Source: a virus. From it: DNA of 20,247 bases. A program made the position numbers and the translations under genes. The stretch spans positions 1-20,247 of the IMG/VR virus record IMGVR_UViG_3300038557_000019; one strand, 5' to 3'. The notes beneath the pieces were generated by a model. The model searched no databases. It was not told the origin of the DNA and saw only the letters and a list, made by a program, of their open reading frames with translations. The first letter of the stretch is position 1; each line of letters begins with the position of its first letter. Shown here piece by piece: positions 2,381-8,757 of this stretch.

Positions 2381-2884
2381 TCAGCCCAGGGCGGCCTTCA
2401 GGTCGGTCATAGTGGCCATCAGCGTCATTGGGTCGATCGGTGACGGCGCAAAGCCGCAGGCCTGGTAAAAGCGCTGGGCGTCTGCGTTCAGGGCCTGCAC
2501 CAACACGCCGCGCACCGCCAGCACCTCGCTGGCCTGCAGCACGCGCAAGACCGCATCCCGCAGCAGGGCCCGCCCGATGCCCTGGCCGTGCAGGCTGCGG
2601 TCCACCGCCAGTCGGCCCAGCATCGCCATCGGGACCGGGTCTGGCATGTTCCGCTTCACACGGCCTGGAGCGGCGGTCACGGCCACAGCCCCCGCCGCCA
2701 GGCAGTAGAACCCCACCACGAAGCCGGCGCGGCACACCACGAAGGTCCGTGATGCGCCGGCCGCCTGATTCGCCCGCGCACGCCGCCGTAGCCAGTCATC
2801 GAGCGTGGCCTCGCCGCTATCGAACAACGCCAGGTCGTGCGTGTCGTCGAGCGGCGTCGGCGCGCTTAGCCGTTCGGCACTCAC
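2381..2884 (-). CDS. GNAT acetyltransferase toxin, TacT-like
   Basis: The 167-residue protein has the layout of TacT-type toxins, which acetylate the amino group of charged tRNAs and block translation. Residues 15-34 (THDLALFDSGEATLDDWLRR) match the conserved N-terminal segment of this family. LGRLAVDRSLHGQGIGRALL (89-108) carries the acetyl-CoA pyrophosphate-binding loop Q/R-x-x-G-x-G. R138-F139-Y140 supplies the usual catalytic tyrosine. The GTG start at 2884 overlaps the antitoxin stop by four bases (GTGA); a second GTG six bases upstream is possible. Reading the frame back to 3358 would run through the antitoxin gene and is rejected. The gene runs against all neighbours and forms a two-gene unit with the upstream antitoxin. 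tRNA specificity cannot be read from the sequence. Confidence 0.88.
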   Translation of the reverse strand: MSAERLSAPTPLDDTHDLALFDSGEATLDDWLRRRARANQAAGASRTFVVCRAGFVVGFYCLAAGAVAVTAAPGRVKRNMPDPVPMAMLGRLAVDRSLHGQGIGRALLRDAVLRVLQASEVLAVRGVLVQALNADAQRFYQACGFAPSPIDPMTLMATMTDLKAALG

Positions 2885-3204
2885 TCCCACGGAGGCGCGG
2901 TTTCCAGCAGCTTGCGAAGCCGGCCGTTCGGGTTGGGCGGCGCGTCGAGTAGCGCCTGGAACTTGGCGTACGCAGCCGGCTGGGTGCGGAACAGCGTGCG
3001 GTCGAGAATGGCGTCGGTCGCAGCGCGGCGCGCAGCCTCTAGCATGAACTCGGAGCGCGACTTCCCCGAGAGCACGGCGGCCTGGTCGATCAGGGCGCGC
3101 TCCTCGGGCCGGACGCGGATGTTGATCGCGCCGACGGTGATGGCGGGCTGGGCCTTCGCCGGGCGGCGGGTCGGGGTGGTGATGCGCTTGGCGGGTGTGG
3201 GCAT
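2881..3204 (-). CDS. DUF1778 ribbon-helix-helix antitoxin, TacA-like
   Basis: This 107-residue protein has a basic N-terminal tail (1-20). A ribbon-helix-helix DNA-binding unit follows (INIRVRPEERALIDQAAVLS, then GKSRSEFMLEAARRAA, about residues 28-64), the hallmark of DUF1778 antitoxins. The C-terminal region contains the segment TLFRTQPAAYAKFQALLDAP, a conserved DUF1778 stretch expected to wrap around and inhibit the partner acetyltransferase. Antitoxins of this type also repress their own operon. A GGAGG motif lies about six bases upstream of the ATG, and its stop overlaps the toxin start, keeping the two products coupled. The 3238-3250 palindrome upstream is a good candidate for its operator. 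Confidence 0.88.
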   Translation of the reverse strand: MPTPAKRITTPTRRPAKAQPAITVGAINIRVRPEERALIDQAAVLSGKSRSEFMLEAARRAATDAILDRTLFRTQPAAYAKFQALLDAPPNPNGRLRKLLETAPPWE

Positions 3205-3565: not shown

Positions 3566-5035
3566 ATGACGCTTCCCTGGATGGCGGCGAAGATCCTGCT
3601 GCGTCCGGTGGCGGAGCTGCGCCCGCATGCCGGGAACGCTCGCGTGCACAGCGCCGAGCAGCTGGAGCAGATCAAGTCCAGCATGCTGGCTTTCGGCTTC
3701 ACCAACCCGCTGCTGGTGGATGAGGAAGGCGTGCTGATCGCCGGCCATGGTCGCCTCGAGGCGGCGTCCGCACTCGGCATGGCGAAGGTGCCGGTGATCG
3801 TGGTGCGGCACTTGTCCGCCGCGCAGAAGGAGGCGCTGCGGCTCGCCGACAACCGCATCGCGGAGAACGCGACCTGGGACCAGGCGCTGCTGCGTGACGC
3901 GCTGGCCGCGGTGCAGGCGGCGCAGGACATCGACCTCCCCGCGCTCGGCTTCTCGGCGGATGAGCTCGCGGACATCCTCGCGGCGGCTGGAGATGCCGTG
4001 TCCGACGGCGACGCGCCCGAGGCACTGTCCGCGGATCCCGCCGAGGGGGGCGGCGCGACTGGCGCGGCGGATGCGGAGGAGACGGCGGAGGATCCCGCCG
4101 ACGCCGATCCGGAGCCGCCGCGCCAGGCCGTCACCCGTCCCGGCGATCTCTGGCTGCTGGGCGACCACCGCCTTCTGTGCGGCGACAGCACCGACACGGC
4201 CAGCGTGGCGCGCGTGATGGGTGAGGACCGCGCGGCGCTGCTCTTCACGAGCCCGCCCTACGGGAACCAGCGGGACTACACGACCGGCGGCGTCACGGAT
4301 TGGGACGCGCTGATGCAGGGCGTGTTTCAGCATCTCGACGCTGCTATGCGTCCGGACGGCCAAGTGCTGGTGAACCTCGGGCTGATCCATCGCGACAATG
4401 AATGGCAGCCCTATTGGTCCGGCTGGCTCGACTGGATGCGCGGCCGCGGCTGGCGCCGGTTCGGGCTCTACACCTGGGACCAGGGGCCCGGCCTTCCCGG
4501 CGACTGGAACGGGCGGCTGTCGCCCGCATTCGAGCTTCTGTTCCACTTCAATCGGGAATCCCGCCGCCCGAACAAGATCATCCCCTGCCGTTGGGCTGGG
4601 CACGTCAACTCCGAGAAGGGTGGCCTCCGCGCGAAGGACGGCACCGTCGGCGAATGGCAGCACGCCGGCCAGGGCGTCCAAGAGACCCGGATCCCGGACA
4701 ACGTGCTGCGCATCACCCGGCACAAGGCCCGCGGCATCGAGACGGAGCATCCCGCGGTGTTCCCCGTCGCGCTGCCTGACTTCCTGATGCGCGCCTATGC
4801 CGACGACGGCGACGTGGTGTTCGAACCCTTCGCTGGCGCCGGCACCACCATCATCGCCGGCCAGCGGACCGGCCGCCGCGTGCGGGTGATCGAGCTCGCG
4901 CCGGCCTATGTCGATCTGGCCGTGGCCCGGTGGCGCATGCTGCATCCTGACCTGCCGGTGACGCTGGCGGACGACGGTCGCGATTACGACGCCGTGGCCG
5001 CGGCGAGGCAGGAGGTCACCGCCAGTGCAGCCTGA
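3566..5035 (+). CDS. ParB-like / DNA methyltransferase fusion (SPPY type)
   Basis: The 489-residue protein joins two parts. Residues 10-130 form a ParB/sulfiredoxin-like N-terminal domain (VLIAGHGRLEAA, GHGR at 60-63; ALRLADNRIAENATW). An acidic alanine-rich linker runs to about 185. A methyltransferase domain then begins at GDLWLLGDHRLLCGDST. Catalytic motif IV is TSPPYG (228-233), and the S-adenosylmethionine-binding motif FEPFAGAGTT lies at 419-428. Motif IV before motif I is the beta-class order. SPPY is commoner in N4-cytosine enzymes and DPPY in N6-adenine enzymes, so the target base is uncertain. No restriction partner is next to it, so it is probably an orphan modification enzyme protecting phage DNA or altering expression. 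A TTG start at 3470 would run through the repeat array and was rejected. Its stop overlaps the paralogous gene by 11 bases. Confidence 0.87.
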   Translation: MTLPWMAAKILLRPVAELRPHAGNARVHSAEQLEQIKSSMLAFGFTNPLLVDEEGVLIAGHGRLEAASALGMAKVPVIVVRHLSAAQKEALRLADNRIAENATWDQALLRDALAAVQAAQDIDLPALGFSADELADILAAAGDAVSDGDAPEALSADPAEGGGATGAADAEETAEDPADADPEPPRQAVTRPGDLWLLGDHRLLCGDSTDTASVARVMGEDRAALLFTSPPYGNQRDYTTGGVTDWDALMQGVFQHLDAAMRPDGQVLVNLGLIHRDNEWQPYWSGWLDWMRGRGWRRFGLYTWDQGPGLPGDWNGRLSPAFELLFHFNRESRRPNKIIPCRWAGHVNSEKGGLRAKDGTVGEWQHAGQGVQETRIPDNVLRITRHKARGIETEHPAVFPVALPDFLMRAYADDGDVVFEPFAGAGTTIIAGQRTGRRVRVIELAPAYVDLAVARWRMLHPDLPVTLADDGRDYDAVAAARQEVTASAA

Positions 5036-6293
5036 TCTCGTCGTTTCCGCTCTGCCGGTCGCTTCCCTCGTGCCCTATGCCGAAAACGCGCGCACGCATT
5101 CGCCGTCGCAGGTAGCGCAGATCGCGGCCTCCATCGCCGAGTTCGGCTTCGTGAACCCGGTGCTGGTCGATGCCGAGGGCGTGCTAATCGCCGGCCACGG
5201 CCGCGTCATGGCGGCAAAGCAGCTCGGGCTGGCCGCCGTGCCGGTGCTGCGGCTTGGCCATCTGTCCCCGCCGCAGGCGCGTGCCCTGCGCCTGGCCGAC
5301 AACCAGATCGCGTTGAACTCGGGCTGGGACGAAGCGCTGCTGACCGCCGAGATCGCGCGCATTCGCGACGAGGCGGTGGTCGACCTGGACGTGCTCGGCT
5401 TCTCCGGCATGGAATTGGACCGACTGCTGGCCGCCGCTGATGCTGGCCTCGGCGATGATGCCGACGAGGCGCCGCCGCTACCGGCGATCCCCGTCACGCG
5501 CACCGGTGATCTCTGGCGCTGCGGCGATCACCGGGTGCTGTGCGGCGACGCGACAAAGCTGGCGGACGTTCAGCGCGCCCTCGGCGCTGGCCACCTGGCG
5601 GACATGGGCTTCGTCGATCCGCCCTATAATGTCGCCTACGAAGGCGGCACCGCGGCCAAGATGACCATCGCCAACGACGCGCTCGGCGGCGGCTTTCCCG
5701 AGTTCCTGCGCCCCGCGCTGGCCAACCTGCTCTCGGTCACCAAGGGCGCTTGCTACGTCTGCATGTCCTCCTCCGAGTGGCCGACGCTGCATCGGGTCTG
5801 GCAGGAGGCGGGCGGCAAATGGTCCAGCACCATCATCTGGGCGAAGAACACCTTCGCGCTCGGCCGCGCCGACTACCACCAGCAATTCGAGGCGATGCTG
5901 TACGGCTGGAAGGCCGGCGCGCAGCACTACTGGTGCGGCGCGCGCGACCAGGGGAATGTTTGGCACTTCGACAAGCCGGCCCGCAACGACCTGCATCCCA
6001 CCATGAAGCCGGTGGCGCTGGTCGAGCGCGCGATCCGCAACAGCAGCAAGCCGCGGGACACGGTGCTAGACTGCTTCGGCGGGTCGGGCACCACGATGAT
6101 CGCGGCGGAGCGCACGGGACGTCGCGCAGTGCTGCTGGAGATCGATCCCGCCTATGCCGACGTGATCGTGCGGCGGTGGCAGGAGACCACCGGCGAAGCC
6201 GCCGTGCTGAAGGGCGATGATCGCATCTTCGCCGATGTCGCCGCGGCCCGCGGCATTGTCGATCATGATGTGATCCAGACCGCCGAATCATAG
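5025..6293 (+). CDS. ParB-like / DNA methyltransferase fusion (DPPY type)
   Basis: This 422-residue protein is a diverged paralogue of the preceding gene with the same architecture. The ParB-like domain occupies about residues 8-130 (NARTHSPSQV, VLIAGHGRVMAAKQLG with GHGR at 57-60, LRLADNQIALNSGW), joined by a much shorter linker. In the methyltransferase domain, motif IV is VDPPYNVAY (D198-Y201), HPTMKPVALVERAI follows at 324, and the cofactor loop is DCFGGSGTT (349-357). DPPY and beta-class motif order point to N6-adenine methylation. The GTG start has GGAGG nine bases upstream and overlaps the previous stop by 11 bases, so the pair is co-translated. The recognition sequence cannot be inferred, and no nuclease partner lies nearby. 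Confidence 0.88.
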   Translation: MQPDLVVSALPVASLVPYAENARTHSPSQVAQIAASIAEFGFVNPVLVDAEGVLIAGHGRVMAAKQLGLAAVPVLRLGHLSPPQARALRLADNQIALNSGWDEALLTAEIARIRDEAVVDLDVLGFSGMELDRLLAAADAGLGDDADEAPPLPAIPVTRTGDLWRCGDHRVLCGDATKLADVQRALGAGHLADMGFVDPPYNVAYEGGTAAKMTIANDALGGGFPEFLRPALANLLSVTKGACYVCMSSSEWPTLHRVWQEAGGKWSSTIIWAKNTFALGRADYHQQFEAMLYGWKAGAQHYWCGARDQGNVWHFDKPARNDLHPTMKPVALVERAIRNSSKPRDTVLDCFGGSGTTMIAAERTGRRAVLLEIDPAYADVIVRRWQETTGEAAVLKGDDRIFADVAAARGIVDHDVIQTAES

Positions 6294-6317
6294 CAGTCTC
6301 ACGACGCTGCATCTTGC

Positions 6318-6396
6318 TTGGCTCGTGCGCGCCACAGCGCGAATGGTCCGTCATACGCAGAGCACCCCGCCCTGCACCAAGACGGAGACGACCATG
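6318..6396 (+). repeat. Leader repeat copy 1
   Basis: The leader from ttggct to the ATG at 6394 is closely repeated at 7608-7684 in front of an unrelated small gene. Shared blocks include cacagcgcgaat, gtccgtca, cgcag, cccgcc and gacggagacgac, in the same order and nearly the same spacing. It holds the ribosome site (GGAG at 6384-6387) and probably a promoter or leader-RNA element. Confidence 0.7.
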
Positions 6397-6630
6397 ACCG
6401 ATCGCGAAGCCCGCGCCGCCCGCAACCAGGAAAACAGCCTGGCCGCCTTCCTGGCGAAGAAGGCGGAATTCGATGCCCTTCTCGCGGAACTCACCCAGGC
6501 CAGCGCGGACCATTTCGGCGCGGACCCTGAGACGGTGCTTTGGGGCGAAGCGGCCTGGCTTTCGGATGCCACCGCGAAGCTGAAGGACATCGCGGACCAG
6601 CATTTCCGCCGGGGCGAATACGAAGCCTGA
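6394..6630 (+). CDS. Small hypothetical phage protein
   Basis: The 78-residue product is predicted almost wholly helical (ARNQENSLAAFLAKKAEFDA, then LLAELTQASADHFGADPETV) with no membrane segment or signal peptide. The C-terminus is charged (DIADQHFRRGEYEA). The ATG is preceded by CGGAGACGACC, a ribosome-site block shared with the genes at 1058, 6726 and 7682. An earlier in-frame start at 6325 would read through the repeated leader and is not preferred. I do not recognise a family. Its position between the methyltransferase pair and a DUF3489 protein in the accessory block suggests a non-structural early function, which is inference. Confidence 0.65.
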   Translation: MTDREARAARNQENSLAAFLAKKAEFDALLAELTQASADHFGADPETVLWGEAAWLSDATAKLKDIADQHFRRGEYEA

Positions 6631-6725
6631 AGCGGACCACTCCCGCACCGCCCCGACCGGCGAGGCCGGCGGGGCTCCCGGCAGTAGGGGCCGATGACCG
6701 GCACCCGGAACCGGAGACCACCACG

Positions 6726-7535
6726 ATGACCAAGCTTTCCGACAGCCAGCGCGTGATTCTCAGCGCCGCCGCGCAGCACGAGATGGGCCTCGCCCGCGCG
6801 CCGAAGACCCTGCCGGTTGCCGCGCGCAACGCGGTCTTCCGCAGCCTGATCAAGAACAACCTGCTCACCGAGATCAACGCCCCGCGCGAGCATGTCGGGC
6901 TCGGCTGGCGGCAGGATGAGGACGGCACCTGGATCGTGGCGCGCATCACCGACGAGGGGCTGCGCGCGATCGGCATCGACCCGAACGAGGGCGACGCGGA
7001 GGCCGGCGAGCCCGACTGCTCCGGCATCGAGGGTAGCGTGCCCGACACGGCGCCCGCGGGCGCGGACGACGCCGCCGAGGGGGATGCCTCCGCGGAGGAA
7101 GCCGAACCCGCCCAGGGCGTGCCCACACCCGCCCCGCGCGCGAGCCTGCGCGACGCCGCCGCGGCGGTTCTGGTTGCCTGGGACGCCAGCCCGGCGCAGG
7201 ACGCGACCGACAACCCGATCAGCCGCGCCATCGAGGCCCTCCGCGCCGCCCTCGCCGGCAAGCCCGCCCGCACCGCCCGCGAGCCGGGTGCGCCGCGCAA
7301 GCCTCGCGAGGGCACCAAGCAGGAGCAGGTGCTGGCCATGCTGCGCCGCCCCGAGGGCGCCACGGTCGCGCAGATCGCCGAGGCGACGGGCTGGGCGCAG
7401 CACACGGTCCGCGGCTTCTTCGCCGGGCTGAAGAAGAAGGGCCACGCGGTCGAGGTGCGCGAGCGCATCCGCCAGGTCGGCCCGAACAAGACCGGCGCGA
7501 AGGGGTCCTTCACCGTCTATGCCTTGGCGGAGTGA
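6726..7535 (+). CDS. DUF3489 domain protein
   Basis: The 269-residue protein has three parts. The N-terminal domain (1-90; KLSDSQRVILSAAAQHE, GWRQDEDGTWIVARITDEGL) reads like a winged-helix module of the DUF3489 type. A low-complexity acidic, alanine-rich linker covers about 95-190. The C-terminal DUF3489 domain (KQEQVLAMLRRPEGATVAQI, then AEATGWAQHTVRGFFAGLKK) has a clear helix-turn-helix with conserved W and TVRGFF. DUF3489 proteins are common in alphaproteobacterial chromosomes and phages and are assumed to bind DNA; their targets are unknown. The ATG has GGAG nine bases upstream. A strong hairpin with a short T-run follows 33 bases after the stop, closing this transcription unit. The high negative charge of the linker is typical of the family. 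Confidence 0.82.
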   Translation: MTKLSDSQRVILSAAAQHEMGLARAPKTLPVAARNAVFRSLIKNNLLTEINAPREHVGLGWRQDEDGTWIVARITDEGLRAIGIDPNEGDAEAGEPDCSGIEGSVPDTAPAGADDAAEGDASAEEAEPAQGVPTPAPRASLRDAAAAVLVAWDASPAQDATDNPISRAIEALRAALAGKPARTAREPGAPRKPREGTKQEQVLAMLRRPEGATVAQIAEATGWAQHTVRGFFAGLKKKGHAVEVRERIRQVGPNKTGAKGSFTVYALAE

Positions 7536-7567
7536 AGCGCCTCAGCCACAGCATCGAACATCATCGG

Positions 7568-7600
7568 AAGCGCCGGGGATCATCCAGATTCCCGGCGCTT
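7568..7600 (+). terminator. Intrinsic terminator-like hairpin after the DUF3489 gene
   Basis: aagcgccggg (7568-7577) and cccggcgctt (7591-7600) form a perfect ten-base-pair stem with a 13-base loop, followed by tatcg. The T-tract is short, so efficiency is uncertain. It separates the DUF3489 gene from the second leader repeat. Confidence 0.65.
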
Positions 7601-7607
7601 TATCGAG

Positions 7608-7684
7608 TTGGCTGCGCTCCGACACAGCGCGAATCGTCCGTCACGCGCAGGGGCATCCCGCCCCGCCAGACGGAGACGACGATG
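7608..7684 (+). repeat. Leader repeat copy 2
   Basis: This is the second copy of the leader seen at 6318-6396, starting ttggct and ending at the ATG of the gene at 7682. It follows directly on the terminator hairpin, so it must supply a new promoter if the downstream genes are transcribed separately. Copy 2 is two bases shorter than copy 1. Confidence 0.7.
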
Positions 7685-7882
7685 AGCACCAGCACCCTCC
7701 CGCATGAGACTGCCGAAGGCCCGCAGGACCGCGCCGCCTGGCAGCAGCTTCTCGCCACAGCGCCCCGCAGCACCGACAGCGTGGGCCGCGCCACCATCCA
7801 GGTCTGCACCGCCAGCGACGGGCGCGGGATCTTCGCCACGGTGGAATACGCCACCTGGCAGACCGAGAAGGAGGAGGGCTGA
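7682..7882 (+). CDS. Small hypothetical phage protein
   Basis: This gene encodes 66 residues, with DRAAWQQLLATAP helical and VGRATIQVCTASDGRGIFAT followed by VEYATWQTEKEEG probably a beta-hairpin. The ATG has CGGAGACGACG upstream within the repeated leader. The stop codon overlaps the next start (TGATG), so the two small genes are probably co-translated. No signal peptide, membrane helix or known motif is visible. Sharing a leader with the unrelated gene at 6394 implies common control rather than common function. Confidence 0.6.
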   Translation: MSTSTLPHETAEGPQDRAAWQQLLATAPRSTDSVGRATIQVCTASDGRGIFATVEYATWQTEKEEG

Positions 7883-8163
7883 TGCCCTCCGAGCGCCGCT
7901 GGATCATCCTGGCGCAGGATGGCCGGCACGTGACCATGGGCCGCGCCGCGCCGCCCAGCGAGGCGGAGGTCGAAGCCGCCGCCGCGGCGCTTGTAGCGCA
8001 GGGGCTGGCCGGCTGGCTTGCGACGCTGGACGGGAACTACTGGTCGCGCCGCCGCGTGGTCCTCGCACCGGTGCAGATGCTCGGCGACGGCGCCACGCTG
8101 GATTGGCCCGCTGCCATCACCGCCTTTGAAGCCGCCCGCCAGCGCGCCCTTCGTCCCCTCTGA
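7882..8163 (+). CDS. Small hypothetical phage protein
   Basis: The 93-residue product begins RRWIILAQDGRHVTMGRAAP, a probable beta strand pair. A helix follows (SEAEVEAAAAALVAQGLAGW), then a strand-rich part (LATLDGNYWSRRRVVLAPVQ) and a C-terminal helix (AAITAFEAARQRALRPL). GAGGAGGG about three to nine bases upstream is the ribosome site, overlapping the end of the preceding gene. Its place directly before the small terminase gene is typical of small phage proteins of unknown role. I do not recognise a family, and the product is likely cytoplasmic. Confidence 0.65.
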   Translation: MPSERRWIILAQDGRHVTMGRAAPPSEAEVEAAAAALVAQGLAGWLATLDGNYWSRRRVVLAPVQMLGDGATLDWPAAITAFEAARQRALRPL

Positions 8164-8203
8164 GAAGGCCGGCATCGCCATCACGCGCGGCGGCTTGCGG
8201 GCC

Positions 8204-8225
8204 CCCATCGCGGCTCCGCGATGGG
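8204..8225. promoter_or_regulatory. Perfect inverted repeat before the small terminase gene
   Basis: cccatcgcgg (8204-8213) and ccgcgatggg (8216-8225) are perfect ten-base arms around ct. The right arm contains the ATG at 8221 and abuts the GGAGG ribosome site (8224-8228). No T-run follows, so an operator or an RNA fold hiding the ribosome site is more likely than a terminator. Confidence 0.55.
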
Positions 8226-8241
8226 AGGCAGAGTCGCCGCC

Positions 8242-8757
8242 ATGCCGGAAATGACCGCCTCCACGCGCGAGGCCGCGCGCCGCCTCGGCGTCAGCGACAC
8301 CGCCATCCACAAGGCCGAACGGGCCGGCCGCATCGCCCGCGAGCCGGACGGCAGTTGGGACATCGACAAGACCCGACGCCGCCTGACCGAGACTGCCGAT
8401 CCCGCACGCTCGCCCCTGGCCAGCGGCGCCGGCGCCGAGGGCACGCCCTTCGCCCGGCTGAAAGTGGCGCAGCTCGCGCTGAAGGTGGAGGCGCAGCGCC
8501 TCTCGCTGGATGAGACCAAGCGACGGCTGGTCGATGTCACCGAGGCTAATGCCGCGCTGGACGAAATCGGCAGCACGATGCGCGACGCGCTGCTGAACTG
8601 GCCCGCCCGCGTCTCCGGCCTGATCGCGGCCGAGATCAGCGTCGACCCGCATCTGCTGCAGACCATCCTGCAGAGCCACATCAACGACCTGCTGACGGAG
8701 GCGGCCGATCGCTTCGATCCAGCAGGCCTCGGAGGGGACCGGTCTTCGCAGCCGTGA
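8242..8757 (+). CDS. Terminase small subunit, Nu1-like
   Basis: The 171-residue protein starts with a helix-turn-helix (TASTREAARRLGVSDTAIHK, residues 4-23) like that of lambda gpNu1 small terminases, which recognise the packaging site on phage DNA. A long charged helical segment follows (about 70-115, AQLALKVEAQRLSLDETKRR), suited to oligomerisation. The C-terminal helices (LNWPARVSGLIAAEISVDPH onward) probably contact the large subunit. The gene lies just upstream of the large terminase. Starts at 8221 and 8251 are also possible; 8242 was taken because GGAGG lies upstream, although 13 bases is a long spacing. The call rests on the helix-turn-helix plus genomic position. Confidence 0.78.
   Translation: MPEMTASTREAARRLGVSDTAIHKAERAGRIAREPDGSWDIDKTRRRLTETADPARSPLASGAGAEGTPFARLKVAQLALKVEAQRLSLDETKRRLVDVTEANAALDEIGSTMRDALLNWPARVSGLIAAEISVDPHLLQTILQSHINDLLTEAADRFDPAGLGGDRSSQP

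Follow-up and report, generated by a model that had tools for sequence, protein, structure and literature searches.

The mom operon of phage Mu has GATC sites upstream of its promoter and a hairpin that masks the Shine-Dalgarno sequence, and the late promoters of phages P2 and 186 have Ogr/Delta sites. For T4 (genes e, soc, 49 and I-TevI) and Aeh1 (mobE), two papers describe a late promoter placed inside a Shine-Dalgarno-masking hairpin (PMC3014915, PMC2988022). The SAS/ESAS elements of cluster K mycobacteriophages are 13 bp long and number 11-19 per genome, and their repeats were not supported as acting as RNA (PMC3203893).

The element described here comes from a virus record, IMGVR_UViG_3300038557_000019, whose whole 20,247 nucleotides (the window) were analysed; our search of the literature on its hosts and possible regulator found no paper on this element or on the regulation of its phages. 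The unit is about 135 bp long, usually occurs one to three times per phage, and consists, in this order, of a palindrome, TTGGCT, GCGCGAA (13 or 14 nt further on), TCCRTC, usually a hairpin, GAYGGAG and ATG. We give a probability of roughly 55% to the reading that this is a portable promoter and ribosome-binding-site cassette with built-in Shine-Dalgarno masking, carried by a large group of Acetobacterales temperate phages. As in the T4-type genes, the likely promoter sits by the gene and the 5' arm of the masking stem is placed such that RNA from that promoter would lack it (PMC3014915, PMC2988022), but here one standard cassette with an upstream palindrome is common to many unrelated genes and phages. 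T4 late promoters use gp55; the start site of the present element is only predicted. With SAS/ESAS the cassette shares one repeated leader with a Shine-Dalgarno before genes of different families, and an upstream inverted-repeat feature in about half (PMC3203893). It differs from them in its ~135-bp unit, its usual one to three copies per phage and its partial stem covariation; we claim no sequence relation, and on reading the two leaders of the window we did not find the 13-bp SAS repeat GGGATAGGAGCCC. Upstream GATC sites, a Shine-Dalgarno-masking hairpin and nearby DNA-modification genes recall Mu mom in layout; no Com-like protein was identified here, and the role of GATC is putative. An upstream dyad is likewise found at the late-type promoters of P2 and 186, with a different sequence and at a different distance.

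Two related leaders precede unrelated genes

The initial annotation had pointed out two leaders of about 78 nt that align along their full length through the ATG, in front of unrelated small genes. All of this was borne out: the leaders run from TTGGCT at 6318 (copy A) and 7608 (copy B) to the last base of the ATG at 6396 and 7684, their alignment scores 44.5 where none of 5000 mononucleotide shuffles exceeded 18.0, and BLASTP gave no alignment at E<=100 between the proteins behind the leaders (78 and 66 aa). When copy B was compared with its own record by blastn, copy A was retrieved with 81% identity (E=1.5e-12, query 17-81), together with one further weak match (E=0.017). The 60 nt 5' of both leaders are also alike (7 of 5000 shuffles were equally good), and the element is in fact larger than the leader: in many copies a palindrome precedes TTGGCT by exactly 57 bp. 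Rfam 15 gave no match at the gathering score in the window and none at E<=1 within 6200-7900.

All features of the two copies lie on the plus strand. Copy A is preceded by an exact match to the palindrome GATCATGATGTGATC (GATC-N7-GATC; 6261-6275), a presumed regulator site 57 bp before its TTGGCT, and by an A/T-rich block CATAGCAGT (6289-6297; consensus CATAGCAAT) that might be an UP-like or protein site. Its promoter-like core (6318-6347), recognised by conservation and spacing, comprises TTGGCT (6318-6323), GCGCGAA (6337-6343) and a -10-like AATGGT (6342-6347). The arm TCCGTC (6347-6352), which covaries in relatives, complements GACGGA at 6381-6386; between the two, RNA folding places an inner hairpin GCAG...CTGC (6357-6375), and the Shine-Dalgarno GACGGAG with its ATG spans 6381-6396, a layout that relatives share. 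The first gene (6394-6630; 78 aa) belongs to phrog_14596, which has no known function, and is followed by a DUF3489 gene (6726-7535; PF11994, E=4.6e-24). Copy B (core 7608-7637) repeats this arrangement with TTGGCT at 7608-7613, GCGCGAA at 7627-7633, AATCGT at 7632-7637, the arm TCCGTC at 7637-7642 complementing GACGGA at 7669-7674, a predicted inner hairpin GGGGC...GCCCC at 7650-7664, and GACGGAG with ATG at 7669-7684, in front of a 66-aa gene (7682-7882) without a Pfam, PHROGs or PADLOC match.

The leader is widespread among Acetobacterales

We then looked for further copies in virus and genome collections, as the initial annotation had proposed. The pattern GCGCGAATNGTCCGTCA matched at least 119 IMG/VR stretches and TTGGCT-N13-GCGCGAATNGTCC at least 119 stretches of the genome collection, so the likeness is not confined to two copies in one genome. 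By title, the genome matches listed were mostly Roseomonas and relatives, Roseococcus, Elioraea, Rubritepida, Asaia MAGs and Acetobacteraceae bins, with some titled as broader Rhodospirillales, Alphaproteobacteria or Proteobacteria bins; two species looked up at NCBI are Acetobacterales, as are most of the other hosts titled. Five of the genome matches listed carried other labels: L144, L167, L221 and L224 look like chance, as an arm paired with a Shine-Dalgarno is missing from them, while the Microbispora bin L162 carries a DUF3489 gene. INPHARED phages gave no match to the leader, and PLSDB gave six partial leader matches only (E 0.6), which we took as chance.

All 29 host genomes inspected, picked because each holds a copy, have one to eight copies of the spacing-13 pattern (the backwards control gave 0 in each), and several of their leaders are paired, ~1.3-1.9 kb apart. 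Roseococcus suduntuyensis DSM 19979 carries leaders at 448234 and 449569 of NZ_JACIDJ010000001.1. A single phage contig (L082, 10859-13349) has three leaders with a different small gene behind each. At L141, L162, L169, L190 and L347 we noted likenesses of the promoter core without the usual Shine-Dalgarno and gene, perhaps decayed or reused.

A first filter kept 301 of the 320 matches from a scan that ignored the arm. Curation left 289 distinct copies, 269 with spacing 13 and 20 with spacing 14, after removal of copies in which no Shine-Dalgarno was found and of loci judged chance, decayed or odd (L144, L162, L163, L167, L190, L204, L221, L224, L251); the choice of start codon was weighted by a bonus for ATG.

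A promoter-like core with a spacing of 13 or 14 nt

The distance between the two conserved blocks hardly varies. The GCGCGAATNGTCCGTCA scan did not require TTGGCT, yet of the 119 distinct matches listed 113 had this hexamer upstream, at 13 nt in 96 cases and at 14 nt in 17; five had none and one lay at an edge. Over 332 records, the arm-ignoring scan gave 284 matches with spacing 13 and 20 with spacing 14, a ratio biased by the fact that the loci were mostly fetched with spacing-13 patterns; two matches at spacing 12 and 14 at spacing 15 appeared chance-like. A control pattern with a wrong spacing (+2) found only 10 stretches.

Counting the first T of TTGGCT as 0, T29 is invariant in 217 of 217 distinct leaders, position 28 is G in 210, position 26 is T in 189 and G in 28, and position 27 is variable, whereas A24 and A25 were fixed by the search patterns. 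The -10-like block keeps A25 and T29 while its middle varies. Taken as a -10 element, AATNRT would have 18 or 19 nt of spacer before it and would place the RNA start near A35. TTGGCT and AATNRT at this distance have a weak likeness to a sigma-70 promoter; a simple scan for TTGACA/TATAAT 16-18 nt apart found no consensus site in 6000-8300. The core is likely to be a promoter, and the cassette as a whole can be taken for a two-part promoter joined directly to a ribosome-binding site, next to a gene for a DUF3489 protein of apparent winged-helix type.

A palindrome is locked to the core from upstream

Conservation upstream of the leader was counted on 61 representative upstream contexts. The palindrome, allowing up to four mismatches, stood at exactly -57 in 22 of the 61, TGATC at -47 in 29, and CATAGCAAT, with up to two mismatches, at -29 in 33. 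Of these contexts, 30 have GATC at -46 and 15 have it at -57, where 0.2 would be expected, and 29 have it at neither position. A search with the upstream part only returned 40 stretches, every one of which had TTGGCT at +57, and GCGCGAA followed 13 nt after TTGGCT in 38, with one or two base differences in the other two; for the 14 newly fetched stretches among them the figures were 14/14 for TTGGCT and 12/14 for GCGCGAA. In eight host genomes, 18 of 20 exact palindromes lay 57 bp before a leader (15 before called leaders, three before spacing-14 leaders), and two were not at leaders. These two (L362, L363) are exact 15-bp palindromes in two host genomes, each within one common longer sequence.

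In the window, the exact palindrome is present at copy A only, and copy B has TCATC upstream where relatives have TGATC. The putative operator of copy A contains two GATC sites. Ending just 5' of copy A are two adjacent, mutually similar genes for ParB-N plus N6/N4 DNA methylase proteins (3578-6290).

An upstream arm complements the Shine-Dalgarno

The arm TCCGTC complements the Shine-Dalgarno GACGGA, and one arm is common to most copies. Other pairings include TCCATC with GATGGA in 12 copies, TCCGTC with GATGGA (a G-U pair) in six, TCCTC with GAGGA, and TCCTGTC with GACACAGGA (L082, L323); compensated arms are of four kinds in total. For a test of stem energy, 290 copies were reduced to 217 distinct leaders, with six loci left out. 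In 25 clusters the mean duplex energy with the own partner was -9.02, against -7.97 (sd 0.28) with permuted partners, and none of 2000 permutations was as low; the same was true with 73 clusters (0/2000), and with 13 clusters six of 2000 were as low. In 45 sequences, 92.3% of cells were paired compared to 90.2% (sd 0.4) after shuffling (0/500 as high) and 34.6-54.2% with slid partners. Six cells were changed on both sides, compared to 1.4 in shuffles, but the number of pairs changed on both sides (2) was not above the shuffled level (109/500).

A covariance analysis for a conserved RNA fold had been suggested, and its outcome was divided, in that part of the stem covaries and RNAalifold found no consensus structure. 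The stem is weak or broken in 47 of 263 copies, whole clades included. Despite these clades and the lacking consensus, an upstream arm that complements the Shine-Dalgarno and is conserved as pairing, as in the T4-type gate, is present here. Averaged over 73 representatives, GGAG was paired with a probability of 0.70 with the arm, 0.47 without it and 0.60 with a permuted arm, and the values with and without the arm differed by more than 0.3 in 22. Copy B, paired from 7637, folds at -21.3 kcal/mol with the whole arm and at -14.0 without it; the corresponding values for copy A are -11.8 (with four of the six arm bases) and -9.2. An 83-nt fold of copy A retains the stem, and an 81-nt fold of copy B prefers a different pairing. 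We also considered a stem extended to the start codon via position 27 and rejected this, because among the 217 leaders 81 combine G27 with a C in front of the ATG and 69 with a G there.

The leader could instead be a promoter with a strong ribosome-binding site and nothing more, in which TCCRTC persists because the promoter needs it as DNA, and its ability to pair with the Shine-Dalgarno is a by-product. The arm indeed overlaps the -10-like block and the discriminator, and the single arm shared by so many copies, the unpaired clades and the RNAalifold result would fit this too. We nevertheless regard it as rather unlikely, given the four kinds of compensated arms and the duplex energies and pair counts that lie beyond those of shuffles. 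A stem that masks the Shine-Dalgarno is probably real.

A possible gate dependent on the start site

How a masking stem could work in the promoter and ribosome-binding-site cassette may be pictured as follows. A regulator would bind the palindrome, RNA polymerase would use the -35-like TTGGCT that follows 57 bp on together with the -10-like AATNRT 18 or 19 bp on, and RNA would start approximately at the conserved A six bases past the -10. Since the first base of TCCRTC is the last of the -10 and its end lies just before the predicted start, RNA begun at the cassette would lack the arm and be translated, while RNA entering from elsewhere would carry it, pair it with GAYGGA and be translated poorly. 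That such a gate is the reason for the stem is a tentative proposal, which we hold to be possible though somewhat doubtful. In the complete scheme, the -10 and discriminator double as an anti-Shine-Dalgarno and restrict translation to RNA from the cassette's own promoter, the cassette has been ported to many unrelated genes, and control is exerted through GATC-N7-GATC, perhaps by the DUF3489 protein or the phage methylases; this scheme has to be considered speculative. If the gate exists, it would show that a T4-type trick can come as a ready-made module and need not arise anew for each gene.

An arm that serves to silence read-through RNA would be expected to degenerate next to divergent upstream genes. 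Upstream gene directions were called roughly, from codon-position GC. Of all 263 copies, 122 of the 141 co-directional ones and 94 of the 122 divergent ones had an intact arm (Fisher p=0.053), with a difference in stem energies by upstream direction (Mann-Whitney p=0.0007). In confident contexts without clustering the numbers were 96/111 and 49/70 (p=0.012), and with one copy per cluster 25/34 and 19/29 (Fisher p=0.59). The unclustered lean fits the gate, but it comes from few clades and relatedness can explain it; most divergent copies keep the arm, so it persists even beside genes that do not read into the leader. Judged by the direction of the upstream gene, the gate gained no clear support.

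The similar retention of the arm in the co-directional and divergent representatives would also be expected if RNA started at or before TCCRTC, so that the arm belongs to the cassette's own RNA and the hairpin controls translation via a protein, temperature or coupling. Retention of the arm in copies behind a strong hairpin and its covariation with the Shine-Dalgarno would agree with this too. So early a start, however, would put the conserved GCGCGAA within -8 to -1, where sigma-70-type promoters are not known to have such a conserved block, and the spacing and G(-13) of sigma-54 promoters are not found either, which makes this explanation unlikely in our view.

Hairpins and genes around the leaders

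The second leader had been said to follow a terminator hairpin. A hairpin does precede it (GCGCCGGG/CCCGGCGC, 7570-7598, then TTTAT; the feature ends at 7603; -27.8 kcal/mol), and as a terminator it is only likely, because the T-run is short and a simple terminator scan does not list the site. Leaders of the 66-aa group typically lie behind a hairpin (median -25.6 kcal/mol), with at least three T in the next 8 nt in 20 of 25 and at least four in 4 of 25 only; those of the phrog_14596 group do not (at least three T in 11/152, at least four in 0/152).

First genes behind the leaders formed 19 groups by BLASTP, or 14 without spurious or odd loci, eight of which have three or more copies. The largest is that of the phrog_14596 protein of the window (188 of 289 copies), followed by the 66-aa protein of copy B (32 of 289), and some single-copy groups may be distant kin of larger ones. 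The cassette would provide a precise, searchable signature of regulated genes in a large prophage group and predicts which small genes are co-controlled.

In a Roseococcus prophage, with genes named by likeness to window genes or to PHROGs/Pfam, all recognised genes from excisionase to capsid run in one direction: recombination and replication genes, two ParB-methylases, leader A, a phrog_14596 homologue, DUF3489, leader B, terminase, portal and capsid. A crude ORF list has minus-strand ORFs there too, most of them doubtful. In a second architecture (L006 and others), the terminase genes point away from the leader: of 266 copies, 71 show this for TerS and 65 for TerL.

Among the functions originally proposed (portable promoter, antitermination or RNA-regulatory cassette), the comparison favours a promoter or RNA-regulatory cassette, because the invariant blocks stand 13 or 14 nt apart behind a position-locked palindrome, because copy B would make a new start right 3' of a strong hairpin, because the first genes are many and unrelated, and because a strand complementary to the Shine-Dalgarno covaries with it in part; nothing specific speaks for antitermination. 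A put/qut-like processive RNA element, altering RNA polymerase for transcription of the late operon, would suit the co-directional architecture, where the leader precedes the terminase genes and has a DNA-binding-like gene as its neighbour, but is highly improbable considering that copy B lies 3' and not 5' of its hairpin, that TerS so often diverges, and that the invariant blocks show no consistent pairing by eye. Equally remote is a sigma-54 or phage RNA polymerase promoter, as might be suspected from a TGGC followed at 12 nt by a conserved C and from the long contiguous core: sigma-54 promoters (GG at -24, GC at -12) have a fixed spacing, while here it varies between 13 and 14 and the would-be -13 G is G in only 99 of 228 copies, and neither a phage RNA polymerase nor a sigma factor was found among the scanned ORFs of the G001 prophage (10 compared with PHROGs and 10 with Pfam, partly the same ones; not exhaustive).

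A DUF3489 gene lies on the same strand within 3 kb of 88 of 95 leaders; by coordinates, three of the other seven are cut by a contig end. Of the 112 DUF3489 genes, 67 lie no more than 3 kb from a called leader. The modelled DUF3489 protein has winged-helix-type helix-strand ends and a disordered middle (mean pLDDT 73.4, pTM 0.35); compared with the PDB it gave many MarR-type matches, all insignificant (E>=0.035), and a profile search gave one MarR match (E=0.08). The DUF3489 protein is a candidate regulator of the cassette, and one that can be tested. A search of four window genes for anti-defence families returned as its sole match a weak one of CARF to the DUF3489 protein (E=8.6e-5).

Another possible regulator is encoded upstream of the methylases by a DUF6456-like gene (1823-2374; E=2.3e-5, just under the Pfam cut-off), which is present in the Roseococcus prophage too. 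On the minus strand (2384-3204), a gene for a TacA-like antitoxin (PF08681, E=1.1e-23) adjoins one for a GNAT acetyltransferase, likely a toxin-antitoxin pair opposite to the run of phage genes. Finally, the contig ends (1-111 and 20137-20247) are 111-nt inverted repeats, 99% complementary, perhaps an assembly fold-back.
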